Source: Pseudoxanthomonas gei
GTDB lineage: Bacteria > Pseudomonadota > Gammaproteobacteria > Xanthomonadales > Xanthomonadaceae
Assembly: GCF_010119615.1 (NCBI RefSeq)
Contig: NZ_QOVG01000011.1
Location: 1-64,000 of the forward strand
Direction of reading: 5' to 3'
DNA: 64,000 nt
In this document: positions 5,621-20,861 of the stretch, one piece after another
Position numbering within the stretch: the first letter of the stretch is position 1
How the letters are laid out: each line of letters begins with the position of its first letter
Translations under genes and position numbers: made by a program
Notes under the pieces: generated by a model
Databases searched by the model: none
The model's input: only the letters and a program-made list of their open reading frames with translations
What the model was told of the DNA's origin: nothing

Positions 5621-7291
5621 TCAGAAATACTTGATGGCCTGGATCCAGAAGCGGCCGGACCGGTCCGGCGCGGAAATCGCGTCTTCGCTGCCGAGCTTGC
5701 CGGCGTAGTAGGTCCTGACCGCGAAGTCGCCGGGCTCTTCCCAGGTCAGGCCGACGCCGGCGGCACTCAGGTTGCGGTCGCGGGATCCGGCATACCACGG
5801 GTCCTTGTCGGCGGTGATGCGGCCGCCATCGACGAAGCCAAGCACGTGCACCTGTCCCGGGACGCGTTCGCTCAGGCCGGCCAGCAACAGCCGCGCTTCC
5901 AGCGTGGCCACGAAGCCTTCATCACCGAAGCCTTCGCCCTGCGGATAGGCGCGCACGCCATCCATGCCACCCAGCACCAGCTTCTCCGAAGCATCCAGGT
6001 TGCCCGAGGCGACCTGTCCGCCGATCGAGCCGTACAGCGACAACAGATCGGTTACCCGCTGCAGCCGCGAGGCGTTGAAGGCGAGCTTGGAATAGGAGCC
6101 CTGGGCGCGCGCGCTTGCCGCATCGGCCGCGCGCGCGGCCGGGGTGCGTATGTCGAGTTCGCCCGAGGACAGGCCAAGATAGAACGCGTTGGCGCCGCCG
6201 CCGCCCAGGTCGTCGTAGTGGTTGCCATAGAGGCTGGCCGTGGCGACCCGCGCCTTCTTGCGGACGACCGAGGAAATCAGGTCGATGTGGTCTTCGAAGC
6301 TGCGGTCTTCGTAGGCCAGCCCGGCATAGAGATTGGTGTCGCGCGAGCGCAGCAGCGCGATCGAGCCGAACAGGCTGGCGACATCGGCCGTGCCGTGCGC
6401 GTCCAGGTCCTCGTACTGTTCGCCCAGCTCATACCTGAGCCGGCTGTAGGCGACCCCGGCGGTGACCCGGCCGAACGGCATCTGGTAGGCGCCCCGGGCG
6501 TAGTTCAACCCGGAGCCGGAAGTCAGCACGCGCAGCGAAGCCATGTCGCCGCGCCCCAGCGGATTGTTCAAGTTGACGGTGGAACCGAGCCGGTACTCGC
6601 CGGTATACGGATTGCCGGCGTTGTCGGCATCGATGCTGCCGGTGATGCGACGTCCCGGCGCGATGTCCACCACCAGGTCCGAAGTGCCGGGCGCCTGGCC
6701 AGGCACCATCGTCGATTGCACGACCACGCCGGGCAGGTCCGACAGCAGCAGCAGGCGATTTTCGATCGGCTCCAGGGTGACCGGGTCGCCCGGCCGCAGG
6801 CCGGCCAGGCGGCTGTTGGCCACGTCGTCGGCCAAGTGGCTCTGGTTGCGCAGGGTCACCTGTCCCAGCACGCCTTCGCTGACCGCGATGGTCAGCGCGT
6901 TCGAGGTGACGTCCTGCGCAGGAAGGTAGGCACGCGCGACGAAGTAACCCTGGCCGCGGTAGTGCTGGGTGATGCGCGCGGCCATGGCCTGCATCTGGGC
7001 AAGCGTCATTTGCGCGCCGGGGGTGAAGCCGGCGATCGCGACAAGCTCGGCAGCCGGAAATGCGCTGGCGCCGGTGAACTGCAACCGGTTCACCAGCACG
7101 CTGGCGGCGTCATCGGCCGCCGGCGTGGCCGCGGCGTTGTCTTCGATGCGTATGCGCGGCTGCGCCTGCGGCAGCGGCGGCGGGGTCGGCAACTGGCGCA
7201 GTTGGCTGCCCGCTCCGGGCACGTCCTGGGCAAGCGCACCCTGGCAGAGTGCAAGCAGCAACAGCGGCAACAGTTTCATTCTTGGATTCAT
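5621..7291 (-). CDS. Two-partner secretion transporter TpsB (ShlB/FhaC/HecB family)
   Basis: Outer-membrane Omp85-superfamily pore (556 aa) that exports the adjacent TpsA. The signal peptide is MNPRMKLLPLLLLALCQGALAQ. A Pro-rich plug/linker region follows, then two POTRA-like domains (VNRLQFTGASAFPAAELVAI..., about residues 70-220) and a 16-strand barrel that ends in the outer-membrane signature IKYF. Start was set at ATG 7291 because the signal peptide begins there; the open frame extends to 7498 with non-signal-like sequence. It is the first gene of the operon TpsB-TpsA-L,D-transpeptidase. Confidence 0.88.
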   Translation of the reverse strand: MNPRMKLLPLLLLALCQGALAQDVPGAGSQLRQLPTPPPLPQAQPRIRIEDNAAATPAADDAASVLVNRLQFTGASAFPAAELVAIAGFTPGAQMTLAQMQAMAARITQHYRGQGYFVARAYLPAQDVTSNALTIAVSEGVLGQVTLRNQSHLADDVANSRLAGLRPGDPVTLEPIENRLLLLSDLPGVVVQSTMVPGQAPGTSDLVVDIAPGRRITGSIDADNAGNPYTGEYRLGSTVNLNNPLGRGDMASLRVLTSGSGLNYARGAYQMPFGRVTAGVAYSRLRYELGEQYEDLDAHGTADVASLFGSIALLRSRDTNLYAGLAYEDRSFEDHIDLISSVVRKKARVATASLYGNHYDDLGGGGANAFYLGLSSGELDIRTPAARAADAASARAQGSYSKLAFNASRLQRVTDLLSLYGSIGGQVASGNLDASEKLVLGGMDGVRAYPQGEGFGDEGFVATLEARLLLAGLSERVPGQVHVLGFVDGGRITADKDPWYAGSRDRNLSAAGVGLTWEEPGDFAVRTYYAGKLGSEDAISAPDRSGRFWIQAIKYF

Positions 7292-7770
7292 GGCGTGCGT
7301 CCTGACTGGAGTCGGCCGCCAATCCCCCTGCAGTGCAGGAGTATCCCGGGCGGCCGTATTGCGATGAGGGAACGTGTTTTGGCGGCGTACGCTCGGGAGC
7401 AGGTACACGCGCGACGGCCCCTGCGATCGCCACGGCGACTGCAGCAGAAAGACGTTCCACGGTTTCCCTGTTACCTGACGCGAGCTGCGCAGCGGCAACG
7501 CTGATTCCCTGCCTCAGCGGCGCTGGTGTCCAAGCGGATATGGCGATGGTGGGGCGGCACGGACGGACCGTGGGACGGAATCCACTACTGGGCCGGGTGT
7601 AGGGCGACCAGCTGCATCGCGGTAGATGTCCGCATTAGGGACCGTTTGTTATGAATGCGTTGTGAGGTAGTCGCGCTTGGCCCAAAAGCACAGGCTGCGG
7701 TTAACAAACCACCGCCCAAGACCGGGAGCTGGATGGCCTCTGCATTCCGGTCAGGTCGGAAGCTGGCGGG
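7292..7770. other. Gene-free leader upstream of the TPS operon
   Basis: No convincing coding sequence. This stretch must hold the promoter of the minus-strand TPS operon, but I see no clear -35/-10 pair. Short frames on both strands have no recognisable protein and are read as chance. It runs directly into the 42-bp repeat array. Confidence 0.6.
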
Positions 7771-8011
7771 AAAGGCTTTTTTGTATTCCCGAAGGCCGCC
7801 AAGTGATTCCGGAAAGGCTTTTCTGCCTTCCCGAAGGCCAATGAGTGATTCCCGAAAGGCTTTTTTGTATTCCCGAAGGCCGGCGAGTGATTCCGGAAGG
7901 GCTTTTTTGTATTCCCGAAGGCCGCCAAGTGATTCCGGAGAAGCTTTTCTGCCTTCCCGAAGACCGATGAGTGATTCCGCAAAGGCTTTTTTGTATTCCG
8001 GACGGCTCGCC
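7771..8011. repeat. 42-bp tandem repeat array, five full units plus a partial sixth
   Basis: Units start at 7771, 7813, 7855, 7897, 7939 and 7981 (the last is partial). Each begins AAAGGCTTTT or a variant and ends near AGTGATTCC. Two unit types alternate: type A carries TTGTATTCCC and type B carries CTGCCTTCCC. The order is A B A A B A, so a 126-bp higher-order unit seems to have been duplicated; units 1 and 4 differ by a single base. Because 42 is a multiple of three, both strands stay open across the array (14-residue peptide repeats such as KAFLYSRRPPSDSG). AT-rich third positions and lack of a start context argue against coding. The array lies between the mddA stop and the TPS leader and is clearly richer in AT than its surroundings. 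Confidence 0.9.
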
Positions 8012-8114
8012 GCCTTTCAGCGGCCGCTTGCAGGTTCCACGTCAATATCGAAATTGCCTGGCGCTTCTTCCCGCCGGGATGCATGCAGGCATCCCGCTGG
8101 TGCGCACTGAACAA

Positions 8115-10217: not shown

Positions 10218-12068
<1,851 letters not shown>

Positions 12069-12124
12069 CAAGCCTGCTCCCGTTCAAAGTGGGTCCAGTG
12101 TAAACGCGCAAACCCCGGCCGACC

Positions 12125-12159
12125 GTCCGCGCGGACGCCACAAGTGTCCGCGCGGACAC
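12125..12159 (+). promoter_or_regulatory. Two palindromic upstream activator sites for the sigma-54 operon
   Basis: Two perfect palindromes, GTCCGCGCGGAC (12125-12136) and GTGTCCGCGCGGACAC (12144-12159), share the core GTCCGCGCGGAC. Their centres are 21 bp apart, two helical turns, so bound dimers would lie on the same DNA face. They sit about 64 and 85 bp upstream of the -12 element at 12213-12216. They are plausible enhancer sites for the Fis-type activator encoded at 18184. They also lie in the glmS leader region, so an effect on glmS is possible. Confidence 0.75.
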
Positions 12160-12200
12160 CGTCACAAGCGGTTATTTACTTGTGATTCAACGGCTTGCAG

Positions 12201-12216
12201 TTGGCACAAGCATTGC
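12201..12216 (+). promoter_or_regulatory. Sigma-54 (RpoN) -24/-12 promoter
   Basis: TTGGCAC at 12201-12207 and TTGC at 12213-12216 (TGGCAC-N5-TTGC) match the RpoN consensus with the invariant GG and GC in correct 12-bp register. Transcription would begin near 12227-12230, about 40 bases before the adaptor start codon. The operon it precedes encodes its own sigma-54 activator. Confidence 0.85.
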
Positions 12217-12267
12217 GTGGGGAATGGCATCCAAGACCCATGCAAGCCAACGGACGCCCGAAACCCC

Positions 12268-13563
12268 ATGGAAACCCGCGATCCCTTCCGTATCCGCGAT
12301 ACCTCCGCACAGGACCAGGTGATCCGGCCCGGGGCGGCCGGCGGGCGCCGCATTCCCCGCGCCTGGCTGGTCGGCGGCGTCGCCGGGCTGGCGGTGCTCG
12401 GGCTGGCGGCTTGGGTGGCCAGCGGCTGGATGTCGGGCGGCCGCTCCTTCGATGCTTCGCGGGTGCGCATCGCCGAAGTGACCCGCGGCGACCTGGTCCG
12501 TGACATTTCCGCCGACGGCCGCGTCATCGCCGCCAACAGCCCGACCCTGTACGCCATCGCCGGCGGCACCGTGTCCCTGAAGGTGGTGGCCGGCGACGTG
12601 GTCAAGCAGGGCCAGGCCCTGGCGGAAATAGACAGCCCCGAGCTGCGCAGCAGGCTGGCCCAGGAAGGGTCCACCCTGGCCAGCATGGAGGCCGAGGCCA
12701 GCCGCGCGCTGCTGGATGCGCAGATCACCCGTTCCAGCGCCTCCAAGCTGCTGGACCAGGCCAATATCGAACGCACGGCCGCCGAACGCGACCTGGAGCG
12801 CTACCAGCGCGCCTATGAGGGCGGCGCCGTGTCGCAGAACGAATACGCCAAGGCCCAGGACGAGCTGAAGAAGGCCCAGATCGGCCTGGCCGCCGCACGC
12901 AAGGATGCCGGCCTGCAGGGCCAGGGCGCCGGCCTGGATTCGCGCAACAAGCGCCTGCTGGCCGACCGCCAGCGCGCGGTGGTGGCTGAACTGCAGCGCC
13001 AGGTCGATGCGCTGACCGTGCGTGCGCCCTTCGACGGCCAGATCGGCCAGGTGCAGGTGCCGCAGGGCACCAACGTGGCCGCCAGTGCGCCGATCCTCAG
13101 CGTGGTCGACCTGAGCGTGTTCGAAGTCGAGATCAAGGTGCCCGAAAGTTTCGCCCGCGACCTGGCCATCGGCATGCCGGCGCAGATCGGCAGCAACAAC
13201 ATCCAGTACCCCGCGCAGGTGTCGGCGGTATCGCCGGAAGTGGTCAACGGCGAGGTCAATGCGCGCCTGCGCTTCGCCCAGGGCAAGCAGCCGCCGGGCC
13301 TGCGCCAGAACCAGCGCCTGTCCGCGCGCATCGTGCTGGACACCCGCCGCAACGTGCTGATGGTCGAACGCGGTTCCTTCCTCGAACAGGGTGGTGGTTT
13401 CGCCTACGTCGTCGATGGCAGCCGCGCCGAGCGCCGGGCCATCCAGACCGGGGTCAGCAGCCTGGGCGCGGTGGAAATCATTTCCGGCCTGCAGCCTGGC
13501 GAAAAGATCGTGGTCTCCGGCAGCGACCAGTTCGGCGATGCCGCGCGCGTCACCCTCAATTGA
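12268..13563 (+). CDS. HlyD/MacA-type efflux periplasmic adaptor
   Basis: Membrane-fusion protein (431 aa) linking an inner-membrane ABC transporter to an outer-membrane channel. It has one N-terminal membrane anchor (about 34-55), a split barrel-sandwich/lipoyl domain (TVSLKVVAGDVVKQGQALAEID and VRAPFDGQIGQVQVPQGTNV, both shown shortened by position near 105 and 245), a coiled-coil hairpin rich in Ala, Glu and Arg (about 135-235), and a C-terminal beta-barrel/MPD. Start ATG 12268 lies about 40 bases downstream of the predicted sigma-54 start point; the frame extends upstream beyond that promoter and is not credible there. It is the first gene of the operon. Confidence 0.88.
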   Translation: METRDPFRIRDTSAQDQVIRPGAAGGRRIPRAWLVGGVAGLAVLGLAAWVASGWMSGGRSFDASRVRIAEVTRGDLVRDISADGRVIAANSPTLYAIAGGTVSLKVVAGDVVKQGQALAEIDSPELRSRLAQEGSTLASMEAEASRALLDAQITRSSASKLLDQANIERTAAERDLERYQRAYEGGAVSQNEYAKAQDELKKAQIGLAAARKDAGLQGQGAGLDSRNKRLLADRQRAVVAELQRQVDALTVRAPFDGQIGQVQVPQGTNVAASAPILSVVDLSVFEVEIKVPESFARDLAIGMPAQIGSNNIQYPAQVSAVSPEVVNGEVNARLRFAQGKQPPGLRQNQRLSARIVLDTRRNVLMVERGSFLEQGGGFAYVVDGSRAERRAIQTGVSSLGAVEIISGLQPGEKIVVSGSDQFGDAARVTLN

Positions 13564-13625: not shown

Positions 13626-14354
13626 ATGCTCGACATGCGCCAGGTCACCAAGGTCTACCGCACCGCGATGGTCGAAACGCACGCGCTGCGTTCGCTGGAC
13701 CTGCACGTCAGGGAAGGCGAGTTCGTCGCCGTGACCGGGCCTTCGGGTTCGGGCAAGACCACCTTCCTCAACATCGCCGGCCTGCTGGAGGATTTCAGCG
13801 GCGGCGAGTTCAGCCTGGATGGCGAGAACGTGAAAGGGCTTTCCGACGATGCCCGCAGCCGCCTGCGCAACCAGAAGATCGGCTTCATCTTCCAGGGCTT
13901 CAACCTGATTCCCGACCTCAACCTGTTCGACAACGTCGACGTGCCGCTGCGCTATCGCGGCATGGCCGCCAGCGAGCGCAGGCAGCGCATCGAGGAGGCG
14001 CTGGGCCAGGTCGGCCTGGGTTCGCGGATGAAGCATTTCCCGGCCGAACTCTCCGGCGGCCAGCAACAGCGCGTGGCCATCGCCCGCGCCCTGGCCGGCA
14101 AGCCGCGCCTGCTGCTGGCCGACGAACCGACCGGCAACCTGGACTCGCAGATGGCGCGCGGCGTGCTGGAGCTGCTCGAGGACATCAACGCCAAGGGCAC
14201 CACCATCATCATGGTCACCCACGACCCCGAGCTGGCCGCACGCGCGCAGCGCAACGTGCACATCGTCGACGGCATGGCCACCGACCTGTCGGTGGAGCCC
14301 AGCCTGATCCGCGTGGCGCAGGCCGCCGGCGCGACCGCCGACACCACGGCATAA
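13626..14354 (+). CDS. ABC transporter ATP-binding protein (MacB/LolD-like)
   Basis: Cytoplasmic ATPase (242 aa) powering the following FtsX-type permeases. Walker A GPSGSGKTT (38-46), Q-loop at Q90, signature LSGGQQQR (142-149), Walker B LLLADE (162-167) and H-loop (VTHD) are all present. Start ATG 13626 has AGAGGAAAA upstream. Such type-VII (MacB-like) ABC systems work by mechanotransmission, extruding toxins, peptides or lipoproteins from the periplasm rather than carrying substrates across the inner membrane. Confidence 0.93.
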   Translation: MLDMRQVTKVYRTAMVETHALRSLDLHVREGEFVAVTGPSGSGKTTFLNIAGLLEDFSGGEFSLDGENVKGLSDDARSRLRNQKIGFIFQGFNLIPDLNLFDNVDVPLRYRGMAASERRQRIEEALGQVGLGSRMKHFPAELSGGQQQRVAIARALAGKPRLLLADEPTGNLDSQMARGVLELLEDINAKGTTIIMVTHDPELAARAQRNVHIVDGMATDLSVEPSLIRVAQAAGATADTTA

Positions 14355-14366
14355 GGGAGGCGCGTC

Positions 14367-15677
14367 ATGTTCGCTTATTACTTCAAGCTCGCCCTGCGCA
14401 GTTTCCGGCGCAACAAGGTGCTGACCGCATTGATGGTGCTGGCCATCGCCCTGGGCATCGGCGCCAGCATGACCACGCTGACCGTGTTCTACGTGCTGTC
14501 CGGCGATCCGGTGCCCACGCGCAGCGAGCAGCTGTACTACGTGCAGATGGCGCCGGAGAGCATGAACGGCTTCACCCCAGGCGACGAACCGGCCCAGCAG
14601 GTGACGCGTTTCGACGCGGAGAAACTGCTTCGTGAAAAGCGCGGCGACCGCCAGGCCTACATGACCGGCGGCGGCGTGGCGATCACACCTGACAAACAGG
14701 GCCTGACGCCCTTCCAGGTGGATGCGCGCTACTCGACCGCCGACATCTTCCCGATGTTCGACATGCCATTCCTGTTCGGCACCGGCTGGAGTGCGACCGA
14801 GGATGAACGCCACGGCCGGGTGGCGGTGATCGCCAAGGCACTGAACGACAAGCTGTTCGGCGGCGCCAACAGCGTGGGCAGGACCGTGCGCCTGGACAAG
14901 GCCGACTTCACCATCGTCGGCGTGCTCGACGAATGGCGTCCGACGCCTCGCTTCTACGACATGAACAGCGACCAGTTCGGCGAACTGGAACAGGTGTTCC
15001 TGCCCTTCTCCACCTCGCGCGACATGAAGATGGGCCGCAACGGCAGCATGGACTGCTGGGGCGATACGGGTTCGGACCCGGAAGGCTCGACGGGTGCGAA
15101 CGCGCCCTGCGTATGGATCCAGTACTGGGTGCAGCTGGACAGCGCGGCCAAGGCTGCGACCTACAAACAGTACTTGACCAACTACTCCGACCAGCAGCGC
15201 AGCGCGGGGCGCTTCGAACGGCCCACCAACGTGCGCCTGCGCAAGGTCATGGAATGGCTGGACTTCAACAAGGTGGTGCCGGGTGACGTGCGCCTGCAGG
15301 TGTGGCTGGCCTTCGGCTTCCTGCTGGTGTGCCTGCTCAACACGGTCGGTCTGCTGCTGGCGAAATTCCTGCGCCGCGGTGGCGAAATCGGCGTGCGTCG
15401 CGCCCTCGGGGCATCGCGGCGGGCGATCTTCACCCAGTGCCTGATCGAGGCTGGGACCGTTGGCCTGGCAGGCGGCATCGCAGGCCTGGGGCTGGCCTTG
15501 CTCGGCCTGTGGGCGGTACGCCAGCAACCGGCCAGCTACGCCGAACTGGCGCACCTGGATCCGTGGATGCTGCTGGCCACTTTTGCGCTGGCGATAGTCG
15601 CCAGCCTGCTGGCCGGGATCGTGCCGGCATGGCAGGCGATGCAGGTCACCCCGGCCATGCAGCTGAAATCGCAATAA
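14367..15677 (+). CDS. FtsX/MacB-type ABC permease, first of a pair
   Basis: Inner-membrane permease (436 aa) with one N-terminal transmembrane segment (about 18-42), a large periplasmic MacB-PCD-like domain (about 43-300), and three C-terminal transmembrane helices around the FtsX motif (GGEIGVRRALGASR near 345). Strong GGGAGG before ATG 14367; 12 bp after the ATPase gene. It is probably a heterodimer with the next gene. Confidence 0.9.
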   Translation: MFAYYFKLALRSFRRNKVLTALMVLAIALGIGASMTTLTVFYVLSGDPVPTRSEQLYYVQMAPESMNGFTPGDEPAQQVTRFDAEKLLREKRGDRQAYMTGGGVAITPDKQGLTPFQVDARYSTADIFPMFDMPFLFGTGWSATEDERHGRVAVIAKALNDKLFGGANSVGRTVRLDKADFTIVGVLDEWRPTPRFYDMNSDQFGELEQVFLPFSTSRDMKMGRNGSMDCWGDTGSDPEGSTGANAPCVWIQYWVQLDSAAKAATYKQYLTNYSDQQRSAGRFERPTNVRLRKVMEWLDFNKVVPGDVRLQVWLAFGFLLVCLLNTVGLLLAKFLRRGGEIGVRRALGASRRAIFTQCLIEAGTVGLAGGIAGLGLALLGLWAVRQQPASYAELAHLDPWMLLATFALAIVASLLAGIVPAWQAMQVTPAMQLKSQ

Positions 15678-15722
15678 CCCCCTTATTCAAGGCAGGCGTC
15701 AACGACGCCTACGGAGATCGTC

Positions 15723-16955
15723 ATGGAACTGCGCCCCATCCTTTCCACCCTGCTGCGCCACAAGACCGCCGCCGCATTGATCGTGCTCGAGATCGCGCTG
15801 AGCTGCGCGATCATCTGCAACGCGCTGTTCCTGATCGGCGGGCGCCTCGATCGCCTGAACCTGGTCAGCGGCGTGGCCGAAGACGAAGTGGTCCGCGTGC
15901 AGCTCACCGGCATCGGTGAAGACACCGACGCCGCCGCGCTGACCCGCAGCGACCTGGCCCTGCTGCGCGGACTGCCGGGGGTCAAGGCGGCCTCGGTCAC
16001 CAACCAGGTCCCGTTCGTGAATTCGTCCTGGAACACCTCGGTCAACATGGCCAAGGACCAGAAGCAGCCGACCTTGGTCGCCACCACCTACATGGGCGAC
16101 GAGCAGTTTTTCGCCGCTCTGGGACCGAAGCTGGTCGCGGGCCGCGGCTTCGCCGCCGACGAGTTCATCGAATGGGCGGCACTGGATGCACCCGACAGCA
16201 AGGTTTCGATCCCTTCGATGATCATCACCCGGAGCATGGCCGACAAGCTTTTCCCTGGCCAGAGCGCACTGGGCAAGTCTCTCTACAGTTGGGGCGAGGA
16301 GCCGATCCGCGTCGTCGGCGTAGTCGATCACCTGGTGCGCCCCAGCGAACAGGGCGGAGCGGTGGCGCACGAGTATTCGATGGTGTTCCCGATCCGTGTC
16401 CCCTACTCGCTGGGCGGAAACTACCTGCTGCGCACCGATCCTGCGCGCCGCGACGAGGTGCTGAAGGCGGCGGTGGCCGCGCTGGAGAAGAACGGCCCGA
16501 GCCGCATCATCCTGGAGGAAAACACCAAGACCATGGAAGCGCTGCGTGCAGGCTATTACCGCCAGGACCGCGCCATGGTCTGGATGCTGGCCGCGGTGAT
16601 CATCGCCCTGCTGGTGGTGACGGCGCTGGGTATCGTCGGGCTGGCAAGTTTCTGGGTGCAGCAGCGCACCAAGCAGATCGGCGTGCGCCGCGCCCTGGGC
16701 GCCACCCGTGGGCAGATCCTGCGTTACTTCCAGACCGAGAATTTCCTGCTCGCCAGCATCGGCATCGTGCTCGGCATGTTGCTGGCCTATGCAATCAACC
16801 AGCTGCTGATGGGCAAGTACGAGCTGCCGAGGCTGCCGCTGTACTACCTGCCGGTCGGCGCGGTGCTGCTTTGGGTGCTGGGGCAGATCGCGGTGTACGG
16901 CCCGGCCCGCAAGGCGGCCTCGGTGCCGCCCGCAGTGGCCACGCGCAGCGCGTGA
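15723..16955 (+). CDS. FtsX/MacB-type ABC permease, second of a pair
   Basis: Inner-membrane permease (410 aa) with the same layout as its neighbour: N-terminal helix (about 15-40), periplasmic domain, then three helices with the FtsX-like KQIGVRRALGATRGQ motif near 320. Start ATG 15723 has GGAG upstream; 45 bp after the first permease. The pair plus the single ATPase and the adaptor form a complete tripartite inner-membrane unit; the outer-membrane channel is not encoded here. Confidence 0.9.
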   Translation: MELRPILSTLLRHKTAAALIVLEIALSCAIICNALFLIGGRLDRLNLVSGVAEDEVVRVQLTGIGEDTDAAALTRSDLALLRGLPGVKAASVTNQVPFVNSSWNTSVNMAKDQKQPTLVATTYMGDEQFFAALGPKLVAGRGFAADEFIEWAALDAPDSKVSIPSMIITRSMADKLFPGQSALGKSLYSWGEEPIRVVGVVDHLVRPSEQGGAVAHEYSMVFPIRVPYSLGGNYLLRTDPARRDEVLKAAVAALEKNGPSRIILEENTKTMEALRAGYYRQDRAMVWMLAAVIIALLVVTALGIVGLASFWVQQRTKQIGVRRALGATRGQILRYFQTENFLLASIGIVLGMLLAYAINQLLMGKYELPRLPLYYLPVGAVLLWVLGQIAVYGPARKAASVPPAVATRSA

Positions 16956-17239: not shown

Positions 17240-17608
17240 ATGAACCTGCCTCGAGTGTTATCGCTCTCCTTCGTCCTTGTTTGCGCGCTGGCCTGCGCCC
17301 CCGCCGGCGCACAGGAAAAGGAAGCCGCTGCCGACAGCGGCGTGTTCGTGTCGGAAGGCACCCTGGACACCTACGTCGGCAGCTACGTCATCTCGCCGGG
17401 TTTCGAGCTCAGGGTGTGGCGGGAAGGCGAACAACTGATGCTGCAGGCCACCGGGCAGGCGGCATGGCCGCTGCAGGGCATTTCGGAAACGGTGTTCCGG
17501 GTCCAGGCCGTCGATGCCAAGGTGAGCTTCGGCGCCAATGCGGCGGGCGACGTGGACCAGGTGGTTTTGTTCATGGACGGTCGCGAGACCAGGGCAATAC
17601 GAAAATAA
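17240..17608 (+). CDS. Small exported protein with DUF3471-like domain
   Basis: 122-aa protein with a signal peptide (MNLPRVLSLSFVLVCALACAPAGAQ, cited as residues 1-25; a Cys at 19 makes a lipoprotein also possible). The domain LDTYVGSYVISPGFELRVWREG resembles the DUF3471/Pab87-type beta domain often found behind serine beta-lactamase-like peptidases. Here it stands alone. Start was chosen at ATG 17240 because the signal peptide begins there. It lies between the transporter and the regulator genes, so a periplasmic ligand-binding or sensing accessory role is possible but unproven. Confidence 0.75.
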   Translation: MNLPRVLSLSFVLVCALACAPAGAQEKEAAADSGVFVSEGTLDTYVGSYVISPGFELRVWREGEQLMLQATGQAAWPLQGISETVFRVQAVDAKVSFGANAAGDVDQVVLFMDGRETRAIRK

Positions 17609-17633
17609 TCCTTCTTCGCAGGAGCGATACCCG

Positions 17634-18143
17634 ATGAAGATCCACCTGCCGGTGTGGCCGTTGCTGCTGGTCGCCATGCTGCAGCCCGTGCCGGTGCTTG
17701 CCGCCGATGCCGCATTGGCGGGGAGCCAGGGACAAGACCCCCTGTTCGACCAGATCGCCGGGCTGGATGCCAAGGTATTCGATGCCTTCAACCATTGCGG
17801 CGAGCCAGGCCGGCTGCAGGAACATGCCGGCTACTTCGCGCCCGGCATCGAGTTCTACCACGACACCGGCGGAGTGACCTGGAGCCGCGACGACATGATC
17901 GCCAACACGCGCAGGTACGTGTGCGGCCACTTCACCCGCGAACTCATCCCGGGCACGCTGAAGGTGTATCCGGTAAAAGACTTCGGCGCCATCTCGCAGG
18001 GCACGCACCGCTTCTGCCAGATCGACAGCGGCAAATGCGAGGGCCTGGCCGACTTCCTTGTCATCTGGCAACAGTCGCAGGGCCGCTGGGAGATCACCCG
18101 CGTGGTCAGCTACGGGCACCGCGCAGTGGCGGCCGCACAATGA
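17634..18143 (+). CDS. Exported NTF2/SnoaL-like protein (DUF4440-type)
   Basis: 169 aa with a clear signal peptide (cleavage after LAADA, about residue 25). A compact alpha+beta NTF2-like domain follows (FDAFNHCGEPGRLQEHAGYF..., residues 48-160), with four cysteines (C53, C100, C127, C134 by approximate count) that could form disulfides. AGGAG precedes ATG 17634. It is 25 bp after the DUF3471-like gene and 40 bp before the regulator, so it is co-transcribed. NTF2-like folds bind small hydrophobic ligands; the role here is unknown. Confidence 0.75.
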   Translation: MKIHLPVWPLLLVAMLQPVPVLAADAALAGSQGQDPLFDQIAGLDAKVFDAFNHCGEPGRLQEHAGYFAPGIEFYHDTGGVTWSRDDMIANTRRYVCGHFTRELIPGTLKVYPVKDFGAISQGTHRFCQIDSGKCEGLADFLVIWQQSQGRWEITRVVSYGHRAVAAAQ

Positions 18144-18183
18144 AGTTACGATGCCGACCTGTTCCAAGGATGCCGGTCACACC

Positions 18184-19521
18184 ATGTCCAGCCTGCTGAT
18201 CATCGACGACAACCCGGCGGTTGCCACGGCGCTTGAGGTGCTGTTCTCGCTGCACGACATCGCCACGCTGCACGCCGAGACGCCCGAAGCAGGATTGGCG
18301 ATGCTGCAGTCCGAATCGGTGGACCTGGTGATCCAGGACATGAATTTCAGCGCCGACACCACTTCGGGCGACGAAGGCGTCGCCCTGTTTTCCGAGATCC
18401 GCGCGCGCTATCCGGACCTGCCGGTGATCCTGCTCACCGCCTGGACCCACCTGAGCAGCGCGGTGGAACTGGTCAAGGCCGGTGCCGCCGACTACGTGGC
18501 CAAGCCCTGGGACGACCGCAAGCTGCTGGCCACCGTCAACAACCTGCTGGAACTGGCGGAGGCGCGCAGCGAACTGGACCGGCGCCGCAACCGCGAACGC
18601 GCACGCCAGGAGCAACTGGCCAGCAAGTACGACCTGCGCGGCGTGGTCTTCGACGATCCGGCCAGCGAGCGCGTGATCGCACTCGCCTGCCAGGTCGCGC
18701 GCTCGGAACTGCCGGTGCTGATCACCGGGCCCAATGGCAGCGGCAAGGAGAAGATCGCCGAGATCGTGCAGGCCAACTCCTCGGTCCGCAACGGTCCCTT
18801 CGTGACCTTGAACTGCGGCGCGCTGCCGTCGGAACTGATCGAAGCCGAACTGTTCGGCGCCGATGCCGGCGCCTACACCGGCGCCAACAAGGCGCGCGAA
18901 GGCAAGTTCGAGGCGGCCGATGGCGGCACCCTGTTCCTGGACGAGATCGGCAACCTGCCGCTGGCCGGGCAAATGAAGTTGTTGCGTGTGCTGGAAACCG
19001 GGCGCTTCGAGCGCCTGGGCTCCAATCGCGAACGCCAGGTCCGCGTACGCGTGATCAGCGCCACCAATGCCGACCTGCCGCTGCTGATCCGCGAAGGCAG
19101 TTTCCGCGAGGATCTTTTCTACCGCCTCAACGCCATCGAGCTGGCATTGCCGCCATTGGCTGAGAGGCCGGGCGATATCCTGCCGCTGGCCGAAAGCTTC
19201 CGTCCCGCCGACAAGCCCATCGGCGACAGCGCGCGTGCCGCCTTGCTGCGCCATCCGTGGCCCGGCAACGTGCGAGAACTGCGCAACGTGATCCAGCGCG
19301 CCGGCCTGCTGGCCGGCGGCGACCGCATCGAGGCGGCCGATCTAAACCTGCCCAAGGCTACGATCCCCAGGCCCGCGGTAACCGTGGAGCCGGATCGCGC
19401 CGGCATTGAATCGGCGCTGGCGCGCGCCGGTGGCGTGATCGCCCAGGCCGCCGCGGACCTGGGCCTGAGCCGGCAGGCGCTGTACCGGCGCATGGACCGC
19501 TTCAACATTCCACGCGAATGA
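18184..19521 (+). CDS. Sigma-54-dependent NtrC-family response regulator
   Basis: Bacterial enhancer-binding protein (445 aa). The receiver domain (1-120) has acidic D8/D9, phospho-acceptor D52, T85 and K107; the loop after D52 is long (NFSADTTSGDEG). The AAA+ domain has Walker A GPNGSGKE (182-189), the sigma-54 contact loop GAYTGA (229-234, Tyr in place of the usual Phe) and Walker B TLFLDE (249-254). A Fis-type HTH occupies the C-terminus (about 410-443). It probably binds the palindromes at 12125-12159 and drives the operon promoter at 12201 in a positive loop. Start is ATG 18184; the last four bases overlap the kinase start. Confidence 0.92.
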   Translation: MSSLLIIDDNPAVATALEVLFSLHDIATLHAETPEAGLAMLQSESVDLVIQDMNFSADTTSGDEGVALFSEIRARYPDLPVILLTAWTHLSSAVELVKAGAADYVAKPWDDRKLLATVNNLLELAEARSELDRRRNRERARQEQLASKYDLRGVVFDDPASERVIALACQVARSELPVLITGPNGSGKEKIAEIVQANSSVRNGPFVTLNCGALPSELIEAELFGADAGAYTGANKAREGKFEAADGGTLFLDEIGNLPLAGQMKLLRVLETGRFERLGSNRERQVRVRVISATNADLPLLIREGSFREDLFYRLNAIELALPPLAERPGDILPLAESFRPADKPIGDSARAALLRHPWPGNVRELRNVIQRAGLLAGGDRIEAADLNLPKATIPRPAVTVEPDRAGIESALARAGGVIAQAAADLGLSRQALYRRMDRFNIPRE

Positions 19522-20861
19522 TCCGCCGCTCCGTCGCCGGCCGCCTGCTGTTCTGGCTGCTGCCCCTGCTGGCGGTCGCCATCGCGCTGCCCTTGCTGTT
19601 GGTGGACTGGCTGGGCGATGCCAGGCTGGCCGCACTGGTTTCGGCGCTGGTCATCGTGCCGCTCGCCGCATGGGCCGTGAAGCGCGCGCTGGCGCCGGTG
19701 AACTCGCTGTTCCGCGCCCTGGCCGGCAGCGTCAACACCTATCGCGACGGCGAGTACAACTCCGGCATCCACTGGCGCGGGCAGGACGACCTCGGCGACC
19801 TGGTCAAGGCCCATGCAGAGCTGGGTGAGGTGCTGCGCGAGCAACGCCAGGGACTCGTGCAGCGCGAACTGCTGCTCGACACGATGGTCCAGAACACGCC
19901 GGTGGCCATGCTGCTGATCGCCGCCGGCGGCGATGGCGAGCGGCGCGTGGTCTTCGCCAACCTGGCCGCGCGCAAGCTGCTTCACAGCGGCTGGAAGCTG
20001 GAGGGCCAGCGTTTCGACGACCTGCTGGCCGCCGCGCCGGTGGAAATGCGCGAGGCCATGCAACGTGGCGGCGACGGCCTGTTCGCGATCGACAGCGACG
20101 ACGAGGACGAGGCCGACTTCCGAGAAGAGCAGGTCTACCACCTGGCGCGCCGGCACTTCCGACTCAATGGCCGCAAGCATGAATTGCTGCTGCTGCGCCT
20201 GCTGACCAACGAGCTGCGTCGCCAGGAAGTGCAGACCTGGAAGAAAGTCATCCGCGTGATCAGCCACGAGTTGAACAATTCGCTGGCCCCGGTGGCCTCG
20301 CTGGCCCATTCCGGCGCCGAGCTGGTGCGCCGCGGGCGCCACGAACGCCTGGAGGAGATCTTCGGCACCATCGAGGAGCGCGCGCGCCACCTGGAAGGCT
20401 TCATCCGCGGCTACGCGCGTTTCGCCAAGCTGCCGCAGCCGCTGCTCAACACGGTGGACTGGGCGCATTTCCTGGCCAGCCTGCATCGGCAGATCGCGTT
20501 CGAGATGGAAGGCTCGGCCGAGGGCATGAGCAGCCGCATCGACCAGGCCCAGATGGAACAGGCCCTGTTGAACCTGCTCAAGAACGCGCACGAGGCCGGT
20601 GGCGAATCCGGAGGCGTCAGCGTCAGGTTGACGCGCCTGCCGGAGTGGTTGCGCATCGAAGTGCTGGACCGGGGCGCCGGCATGAACGAGTCGGTGCTGC
20701 AGAACGCGCTGGTGCCGTTCTATTCCACCAAGCGCAACGGCACCGGACTGGGCCTGGCGCTGACCCGCGAGATCGTGGAAGCCCACGGAGGCCGACTGTC
20801 GATGCACAACCGCGAGGGTGGCGGGCTATGCGTGGCGATCCAGCTACCGGACGCGGGATGA
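19518..20861 (+). CDS. Membrane sensor histidine kinase (NtrY-like)
   Basis: 447-aa kinase with two N-terminal transmembrane helices (about 8-29 and 36-55) and almost no periplasmic loop. A HAMP-like linker and PAS-like segment (about 120-220) follow, then H250 in SHELNNSLAP and an HATPase domain with N (NLLKNAHEA), G1 (DRGAGMN) and G2 (GTGLGLAL) boxes. The ATGA overlap with the regulator shows translational coupling. The lack of a periplasmic sensor suggests that it senses within the membrane or through partners, perhaps the transporter or the two exported proteins encoded just upstream. Confidence 0.92.
   Translation: MIRRSVAGRLLFWLLPLLAVAIALPLLLVDWLGDARLAALVSALVIVPLAAWAVKRALAPVNSLFRALAGSVNTYRDGEYNSGIHWRGQDDLGDLVKAHAELGEVLREQRQGLVQRELLLDTMVQNTPVAMLLIAAGGDGERRVVFANLAARKLLHSGWKLEGQRFDDLLAAAPVEMREAMQRGGDGLFAIDSDDEDEADFREEQVYHLARRHFRLNGRKHELLLLRLLTNELRRQEVQTWKKVIRVISHELNNSLAPVASLAHSGAELVRRGRHERLEEIFGTIEERARHLEGFIRGYARFAKLPQPLLNTVDWAHFLASLHRQIAFEMEGSAEGMSSRIDQAQMEQALLNLLKNAHEAGGESGGVSVRLTRLPEWLRIEVLDRGAGMNESVLQNALVPFYSTKRNGTGLGLALTREIVEAHGGRLSMHNREGGGLCVAIQLPDAG

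Follow-up and report, generated by a model that had tools for sequence, protein, structure and literature searches.

Do the two palindromes and the sigma-54-type promoter that precede an efflux operon of Pseudoxanthomonas gei form a switch for the regulator encoded in the same operon, and does such a switch act on this operon alone? We analyzed a stretch of 64,000 nucleotides (the window), for which a first-pass annotation made from the letters alone had described these elements. Letters and coordinates of the palindromes and the promoter were correct to the base, and the centers of the palindromes GTCCGCGCGGAC and GTGTCCGCGCGGACAC are indeed 21 bp apart. The description of the promoter as a near-perfect RpoN site also holds, as TGGCAC-N5-TTGC occurs without mismatch at 12202-12216 and this is the single such match in the window. 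Overlooked by the annotation was a putative IHF site beside the -24 element, which differs at one position from the IHF consensus WATCAANNNNTTR. The predicted elements are:

12125..12136, no strand assigned: predicted enhancer palindrome 1, GTCCGCGCGGAC, with half-sites GTCC (12125-12128) and GGAC (12133-12136)
12144..12159, no strand assigned: enhancer palindrome 2, GTGTCCGCGCGGACAC, perfect over 16 bp, with half-sites GTCC (12146-12149) and GGAC (12154-12157)
12185..12197, forward strand: IHF-like site ATTCAACGGCTTG, at -17 from the -24 element
12202..12216, forward strand: candidate sigma-54 -24/-12 promoter TGGCACAAGCATTGC, with the start of transcription expected near 12227

Counted from the T of TGGCAC, the half-sites of palindrome 1 lie at -77 (F1, GTCC) and -69 (R1, GGAC), and those of palindrome 2 at -56 (F3, GTCC) and -48 (R3, GGAC).

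The operon and its regulatory genes

The domain content of the genes downstream of the promoter agrees with the proposed efflux operon (adaptor, ABC ATPase and two FtsX/MacB-type permeases), which ends, as had been claimed, with a sigma-54 activator of REC-AAA+-Fis composition and then a histidine kinase:

10218..12071, reverse strand: glmS, a divergent conserved neighbor (context only)
12268..13563, forward strand: periplasmic adaptor (membrane fusion protein, HlyD/RND_mfp)
13626..14354, forward strand: ABC ATPase, MacB/LolD/DarD-like
14367..15677, forward strand: MacB_PCD/FtsX permease 1
15723..16955, forward strand: MacB_PCD/FtsX permease 2
17240..17608, forward strand: small DUF3471 protein whose N-terminus looks like that of a secreted protein; start deduced from the open reading frame
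17538..18143, forward strand: DUF4440 protein, open reading frame as listed, true start probably downstream
18145..19521, forward strand: NtrC-type response regulator (REC, AAA+ with GAYTGA, Fis-type HTH)
19518..20861, forward strand: histidine kinase (a pair of neighboring membrane helices with a short loop, then PAS, HisKA and HATPase domains)

In the window, a gap of ~285 bases and two extra genes separate permease 2 from the regulator, and cotranscription through to the regulator is therefore tentative here; neither a sigma-70-like promoter nor a forward terminator was found in this gap. The DUF4440 gene was matched in part of the orthologous loci only (best 80 of 522). In three loci (L034, L051 and L080) the regulator match begins 19-26 bases after the permease 2 match, a spacing that supports cotranscription.

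The regulator scored 214.5 bits against Pfam Sigma54_activat, and its best matches, at 92% each, came from strain CF125 and from P. yeongjuensis, the window's own record possibly being absent from the sequences searched. The likely start of the regulator is ~36 bases downstream of the listed one, at the point from which most orthologues align. Among the best 80 of 522 regulator orthologues, GAYTGA was retained in all 80 and the receiver motif (V/I/L)QDM in 79, while SRQALYRRM in the recognition-helix region was present in 70 and differed in 10. The genome also encodes RpoN (PF04552, 210.8 bits, contig C47). Judged by hydropathy only, the two best 17-residue hydrophobic segments in the N-termini of 79 orthologous kinases lie 2-13 residues apart, and both are clearly hydrophobic in 78 of these. 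Two such close helices, joined by a loop of at most ~13 residues, point to a kinase that probably lacks a periplasmic sensor domain and receives its signal from the membrane or the transporter.

The available excerpts of the literature that links sigma-54, NtrC or RpoN to ABC exporters, including those of the MacB type, contained no account of this particular operon. The excerpt of one sigma-54 paper (PMC3162934) contains none of the terms efflux, HlyD, ABC transporter, exporter and MacB, and that of another (PMC7280030) mentions an ABC transporter once, as a neighbor of rpoN1.

On the other side of glmS, the window contains an open reading frame (5621-7498, reverse strand) that by eye resembles a two-partner secretion outer-membrane transporter of the ShlB/FhaC type, and a tandem array at 7769-8012 (42-bp unit, 5.8 copies, 80% matches) with a higher-order period of 126 bp (1.9 copies).

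Coupling of palindromes and promoter

The exact sequence GTCCGCGCGGAC occurs twice in the window, both times within this element. Near-matches with up to two mismatches were not enriched in the window (11 found, 13.3 expected in shuffles), and neither was TGGCACN5TTGC with one mismatch allowed (5 versus 9). A lone palindrome would mean little, because near-matches are at chance level in this GC-rich DNA, where the half-site is itself rich in GC and isolated sites are fairly common, and the claim therefore rests on the combination of elements and on its conservation. GTCCN4GGAC followed within the allowed gap by TGGCAN6TTGC matched once in the 3.43-Mb genome, at this operon, and the reversed control of this strict pattern matched nowhere; the coupling of palindrome and promoter is not due to chance. 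In the literature, as far as the excerpts go, the exact palindromes appeared only in PMC3215284 (human CD164) and PMC3873445 (a cytomegalovirus study), neither of them bacterial.

The chance frequency of palindrome near-matches in the GC-rich window and the presence of other repeats in it would suit remnants of a mobile or REP-like palindromic element that were conserved by ancestry only. We regard such an origin as very improbable, since the coupled pattern is unique in the genome, and the positional data given below speak against it as well.

Conservation at orthologous operons

Orthologous loci were taken as the best 80 of 522 by regulator similarity; 69 of them contain the adaptor gene and 11 do not, and together with the window this gave 70 upstream regions, one of which (L033) is cut short upstream. 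Among the best 80 of 522 loci the gene order is usually retained, often with glmS adjoining, and in most of them site and regulator gene lie within one gene cluster. All 70 upstream regions contain a -24/-12 candidate, with no mismatch in 10, one in 58 and two in 2, and almost every one of them also carries half-sites in position. A wider coupled pattern (GTCCG, 20-26 bases, GGAC, 40-52 bases, TGGCAN7TGC), which was derived from these same loci, was found at the right place in 66 of the 70 and had no other match inside them; it was absent at L033 (cut off), L034, L043 and L082. Across the family it matched 192 of 247 genomes compared to 58 of 247 for the reversed control (counted by hand from the table). 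The palindromes are thus conserved next to orthologous operons, a check that the first-pass annotation had proposed.

An adaptor gene lay downstream in 21 of 30 loci fetched from the family-wide pattern search. Among the other nine, seven matches precede small open reading frames, one (L102, in G035) looks like chance, and one (L116) precedes a frame that combines an adaptor start with a kinase. In L116, this open frame lies beside glmS behind the same enhancer; its adaptor-like beginning runs on into the kinase, which suggests either a deletion of the transporter genes or an assembly artefact. A site in G007 (L170), which like that of L102 precedes unrelated genes, also looks like chance.

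The co-occurrence of pattern and regulator was assessed in 80 family genomes: the full set of 55 that lack the pattern, and 25 of the 192 that have it. Of the 25 pattern genomes, 23 encode a regulator orthologue (E < 1e-130), versus 29 of the 55 pattern-less ones (Fisher p = 0.0008); the pattern matches include some chance ones, for example in G003. Regulator and pattern co-vary. Twenty operon regions were then taken from 19 regulator-bearing genomes without the pattern and from G003; in 16 of them a -24/-12 element is accompanied by two or more half-sites between -85 and -45. The adaptor start lies outside the fetched piece in L240, L242 and L246, and L241 has the palindrome and lacks the -24/-12 consensus.

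These data bear on the possibility that the half-sites bind another regulator, for instance a repressor or another NtrC-type protein, while the regulator of the operon has its targets elsewhere. Judging by preliminary counts of candidates, each genome may hold many NtrC paralogues, which would leave room for such a protein. However, site and regulator gene share a gene cluster in most loci, and the pattern is absent from 26 of 28 regulator-less genomes; in G004, one of the two exceptions, the transporter genes are followed by a stretch of the regulator (60% identity) that runs to where the fetched piece ends. As two conserved targets per genome were also found in the eight genomes scanned (see below), we consider a foreign regulator unlikely and favor the one encoded in the operon.

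Beyond the family, the wider pattern matched 16 of 366 genomes in a sample of the class, with the adaptor gene in none of the 16 fetched loci, and an occurrence across the class was rejected. Regulator orthologues at E < 1e-125 were found in only three of these 366 genomes. One distant operon (L309) has half-sites at -77, -65 and -59, and another (L310) has a sigma-54 site with half-sites out of register. A 15-kb contig recorded as betaproteobacterial (Massilia sp. MS-15, L074) holds the operon with a regulator of 75% identity, through either horizontal transfer or contamination.

Positions of half-sites and of the IHF-like site

Dereplication to below 80% identity reduced 125 operon promoters to 85. 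This set mixes loci obtained by regulator similarity with loci fetched by the pattern itself, and is therefore somewhat biased toward the pattern. Counted from the T of TGGCA, the starts of GTCC in the 85 promoters peak near -77, -65 and -54, and those of GGAC near -70, about -58 and -49. The nested form (F1 F2 R2 R3) occurs in 31 of 85 promoters and the tandem form of the window (F1 R1 F3 R3) in 16, the remaining 38 having a partial or mixed layout. The two palindromes annotated as tandem enhancer sites are thus present, but the tandem arrangement is only one of two main layouts and the less frequent one. With six positional windows, which were drawn after the histogram had been seen, the promoters occupied 3.72 on average versus 0.33 (maximum 0.52) in 200 dinucleotide shuffles, and 94% of the promoters versus at most 1.2% in shuffles had three or more windows occupied.

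We read these positions as three putative dimer sites about one helical turn apart, which may be filled fully or by half. The spacings from F to R half-sites are 4, 6, 7 and 8, which is unusual for one rigid dimer site, and a single rigid site therefore does not explain the layout. Several periods in the range of 9.5 to 12 bp concentrated the positions about equally well, so that a period of 10.5 bp is not singled out. Against an origin of the half-sites as remnants of a repeat element, the positions relative to the -24 element are kept while sequence and layout change between the nested and the tandem form.

The best forward match to the IHF-like WATCAANNNNTTR was perfect in 13 of the 85 promoters (shuffle average 0.02), at least 11 of these at -17/-18, and had at most one mismatch in 51 (shuffle average 1.04), at least 48 of these at -17/-18. 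Many Stenotrophomonas promoters contain no forward form. This absence, and a position at -17/-18 that is closer to the -24 element than usual, would also fit an ATCAA-N4-TTG element that is a part of the sigma-54 promoter or the site of another factor. Such a role may apply, with perhaps one chance in a few, but the perfect forward consensus in 13 of 85 promoters, at an expectation of 0.02, argues for IHF as the preferred candidate.

A second target upstream of trmL

Fifteen family genomes with more than one pattern match were searched again; the second matches of G088, G112 and G045 stayed outside the tally. In ten of the fifteen (seven of genus g15, two of g38, and G131) the element precedes the gene of a secreted repeat protein, followed by trmL. 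The protein has 153-157 amino acids (180 in one open reading frame) and contains repeats of the type TLxAVQVRPSAEQ. A homologue lies behind the match of G046, and another small open reading frame behind that of G020. NCBIfam assigns the protein to the XAC0231 family (NF052303), with 218 bits for a Xanthomonas-like member at a cut-off of 140; the homologue in the window's genome is diverged and at 74.1 bits below this cut-off, and it occupies the same place before trmL. Homologues (E 0.001 or better) are spread over 76 of the 247 family genomes, which belong to 10 of 46 genera and include the window's genome; many of the matches are weak, and in 14 genomes a listed match holds a stop codon. The literature searched yielded neither the name XAC0231 nor a paper on this second target.

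In the window's genome, the second target has the following form:

contig C46, just upstream of trmL: gene of the XAC0231-like repeat protein, preceded by TGGCACGCCGCATGC, an IHF-like site without mismatch, and half-sites of the GGAC type at -75, -69, -57 and -48

Since the same element stands before the XAC0231-like gene, this genome has two conserved targets. Protein similarity yielded 49 distinct loci of this kind, of which L211 and L225 are pieces without trmL, leaving 47. A -24/-12 candidate is present in 47 of 47 and an ATCAA-type element in 29. Choosing for each locus the -24 candidate with the most half-sites, which favors the half-site count, 43 of 47 have the half-site at -49 and 36 of these 43 carry at least one more. 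The recurrence of the same positions at a locus unrelated to the operon is a further argument against remnants of a repeat element.

The proposed scan of the genome for further sites was run with the strict pattern, which gave the single match at the operon, and with a looser one (GGACAN42-47TGGCAN7TGC), which gave three: the operon, the trmL-side target and one that looks like chance. With these counts, a general multi-gene regulon was rejected. The looser pattern was also run on eight genomes and hit both targets, operon and trmL-linked site, in each of them, with 10 extra matches versus 4 for the reversed control. The autoregulated circuit that had been suggested is supported in so far as the predicted sites are kept at orthologous operons and appear to co-vary with the regulator; it is not only autoregulatory, because a second target exists elsewhere in the genome.

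Other small open reading frames follow the element before trmL in the genera g36 and g27, and in g20 the element precedes a small open reading frame with trmL not seen; by eye, none of these is recognizably related to XAC0231. Different small open reading frames under the element were noted in L092, L093, L095, L097-L100, L151, L166 and L167, mostly before trmL, and that of L093, the only one scanned, had no NCBIfam or Pfam match. G565 belongs to a different family of the Gammaproteobacteria, and its regulator is 60% identical; here the gene immediately preceding the adaptor (L311, 3310-3822 on the reverse complement of the piece) encodes a protein that looks secreted. It contains two VLL(E/D)(Q/K)V(V/I)VTP repeats, and upstream of it lie a -24/-12 element with one mismatch and GTCC/GGAC half-sites that are not in the usual register.

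Likeness of the repeats to TonB boxes

The window's genome encodes 26 TonB-dependent receptors with N-terminal boxes such as TTLDRIEVTG. On a profile of these boxes, the best repeat scored 14.7 in the genome's own repeat protein and 17.8 in that of L143, compared to 17.2-31.1 for true boxes in a leave-one-out analysis; none of 17530 10-mers from 48 window open reading frames scored as high as the best repeats. Other repeats scored lower, down to 1.0 (background). A best score of at least 14 was reached by 17 of 46 distinct repeat-protein homologues (median 10.9), or 19 of 48 when duplicates are counted, versus 4 of 344 other open reading frames, and the top two of these four look like receptors. 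Strands that resemble TonB boxes include TTLDTVQVRP and VDLPTVTVRP; the distant L311 operon has VLLDKVIVTP. These comparisons are suggestive of TonB-box-like repeats. The protein could then be a secreted decoy, with XAC0231-type repeats that bind periplasmic TonB and damp TonB-dependent uptake while the exporter clears a toxic compound. We regard this idea as speculative and rather doubtful; if true, the regulon would be a shut-the-door-and-bail-out response under one phased sigma-54 enhancer code.

Mosaic ancestry of the operon

Gene trees of up to 25 chosen sequences each gave different affiliations for the parts of the operon. The two permeases of the window (14367-16955), and likewise those of P. 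yeongjuensis, group with Luteimonas mephitis (support 0.98 and 0.97), and the ATPase groups with L. mephitis, Thermomonas haemolytica and L055 (0.89). The clades of the regulator, the kinase and GlmS (17, 17 and 16 sequences; support 0.95, 0.96 and 0.87) contain no Luteimonas, Thermomonas or Lysobacter, and their other Pseudoxanthomonas members have the nested enhancer form; finer nodes are weak, the window's regulator being joined to Pseudoxanthomonas alone at 0.27. L. mephitis has the tandem enhancer, as does the window, and P. yeongjuensis DSM 18204 (L006) shares the layout of the window. Strain CF125 (L007) combines a tandem enhancer with permeases that are not of the L. mephitis type, and enhancer and permeases therefore did not simply travel together. 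This pattern fits a recombination that would have swapped promoter and transporter parts and kept the native regulator. In view of this mosaic ancestry, one type of regulator probably reads both the tandem and the nested form. The family offers a natural experiment that confronts a single type of regulator with both layouts.

Proposed mechanism

Our best explanation, which we hold to be likely, is an autoregulated sigma-54 promoter-enhancer of an exporter operon found widely across the family Xanthomonadaceae (Lysobacteraceae). What we observed are the sequences, their conservation and positions, the second target, the domain content and the co-occurrence; binding, phosphorylation, dependence on RpoN and IHF, signal and substrate are inferred. 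The kinase would sense a signal borne by the membrane or the transporter and phosphorylate the NtrC-type regulator encoded with it. Regulator dimers would bind CGGACA/TGTCCG half-sites, arranged in tandem or nested form, at three positions that lie 45-80 bp ahead of the -24 element. Being about one helical turn apart, the bound dimers could seed a hexamer on a single face of the double helix. Bound just upstream of the -24 element, IHF may bend the DNA, so that the GAYTGA loops would reach the RpoN polymerase. Expression of the operon would yield more exporter and more regulator, a positive feedback, and the same element would drive a second unit, the small secreted XAC0231-like repeat protein upstream of trmL. 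At the sequence level, this reading of the circuit is well supported.

The element offers a testable cis code of half-site, three phased positions, IHF-like site and -24/-12 promoter, with a regulator that is kept across much of the family. It also links an uncharacterized secreted repeat protein to an exporter circuit that probably senses the membrane, giving a first handle on the functions of both.

Comparison with known systems

In architecture the exporter resembles MacAB-TolC and DarBCD, with which it shares the adaptor, the ATPase and the MacB_PCD/FtsX permease, but it has a separate ATPase and two half permeases. Its scores remained below the NCBIfam cut-offs for both systems (MacA 57.6 versus 342; MacB, on the separate ATPase, 210.7 versus 966) and, for DarBCD, below the equivalog cut-offs (DarC 61.4 versus 450; DarD 268.3 versus 375; DarB 28.2 versus 700).

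HssRS-HrtBA and BceRS-BceAB of the Firmicutes are two-component systems that are likewise encoded with an FtsX/MacB-type ABC transporter, and kinases of the Bce type resemble the present one in their two membrane helices with hardly any extracytoplasmic portion. In contrast to these modules, the regulator described here is of the NtrC type and acts, as predicted, at sigma-54 promoters instead of being OmpR-type, and the system includes a periplasmic adaptor, two permeases and a PAS domain in the kinase.

The circuit also resembles NtrC- and NorR-type sigma-54 circuits, which share the AAA+ and Fis HTH domains, the GAFTGA-type loop (here GAYTGA), phased upstream sites and autoregulation. NorR reportedly works with three enhancer sites (Tucker et al. 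2010). The present circuit differs in its TGTCCG/CGGACA half-site and in two main layouts at fixed positions very close to the -24 element, and a receiver domain replaces the signal-binding domain of NorR. The locus thus belongs to a known kind, the NtrC-type sigma-54 circuit, and what appears new, as far as the literature searched goes, is the phased half-site code and the second target.
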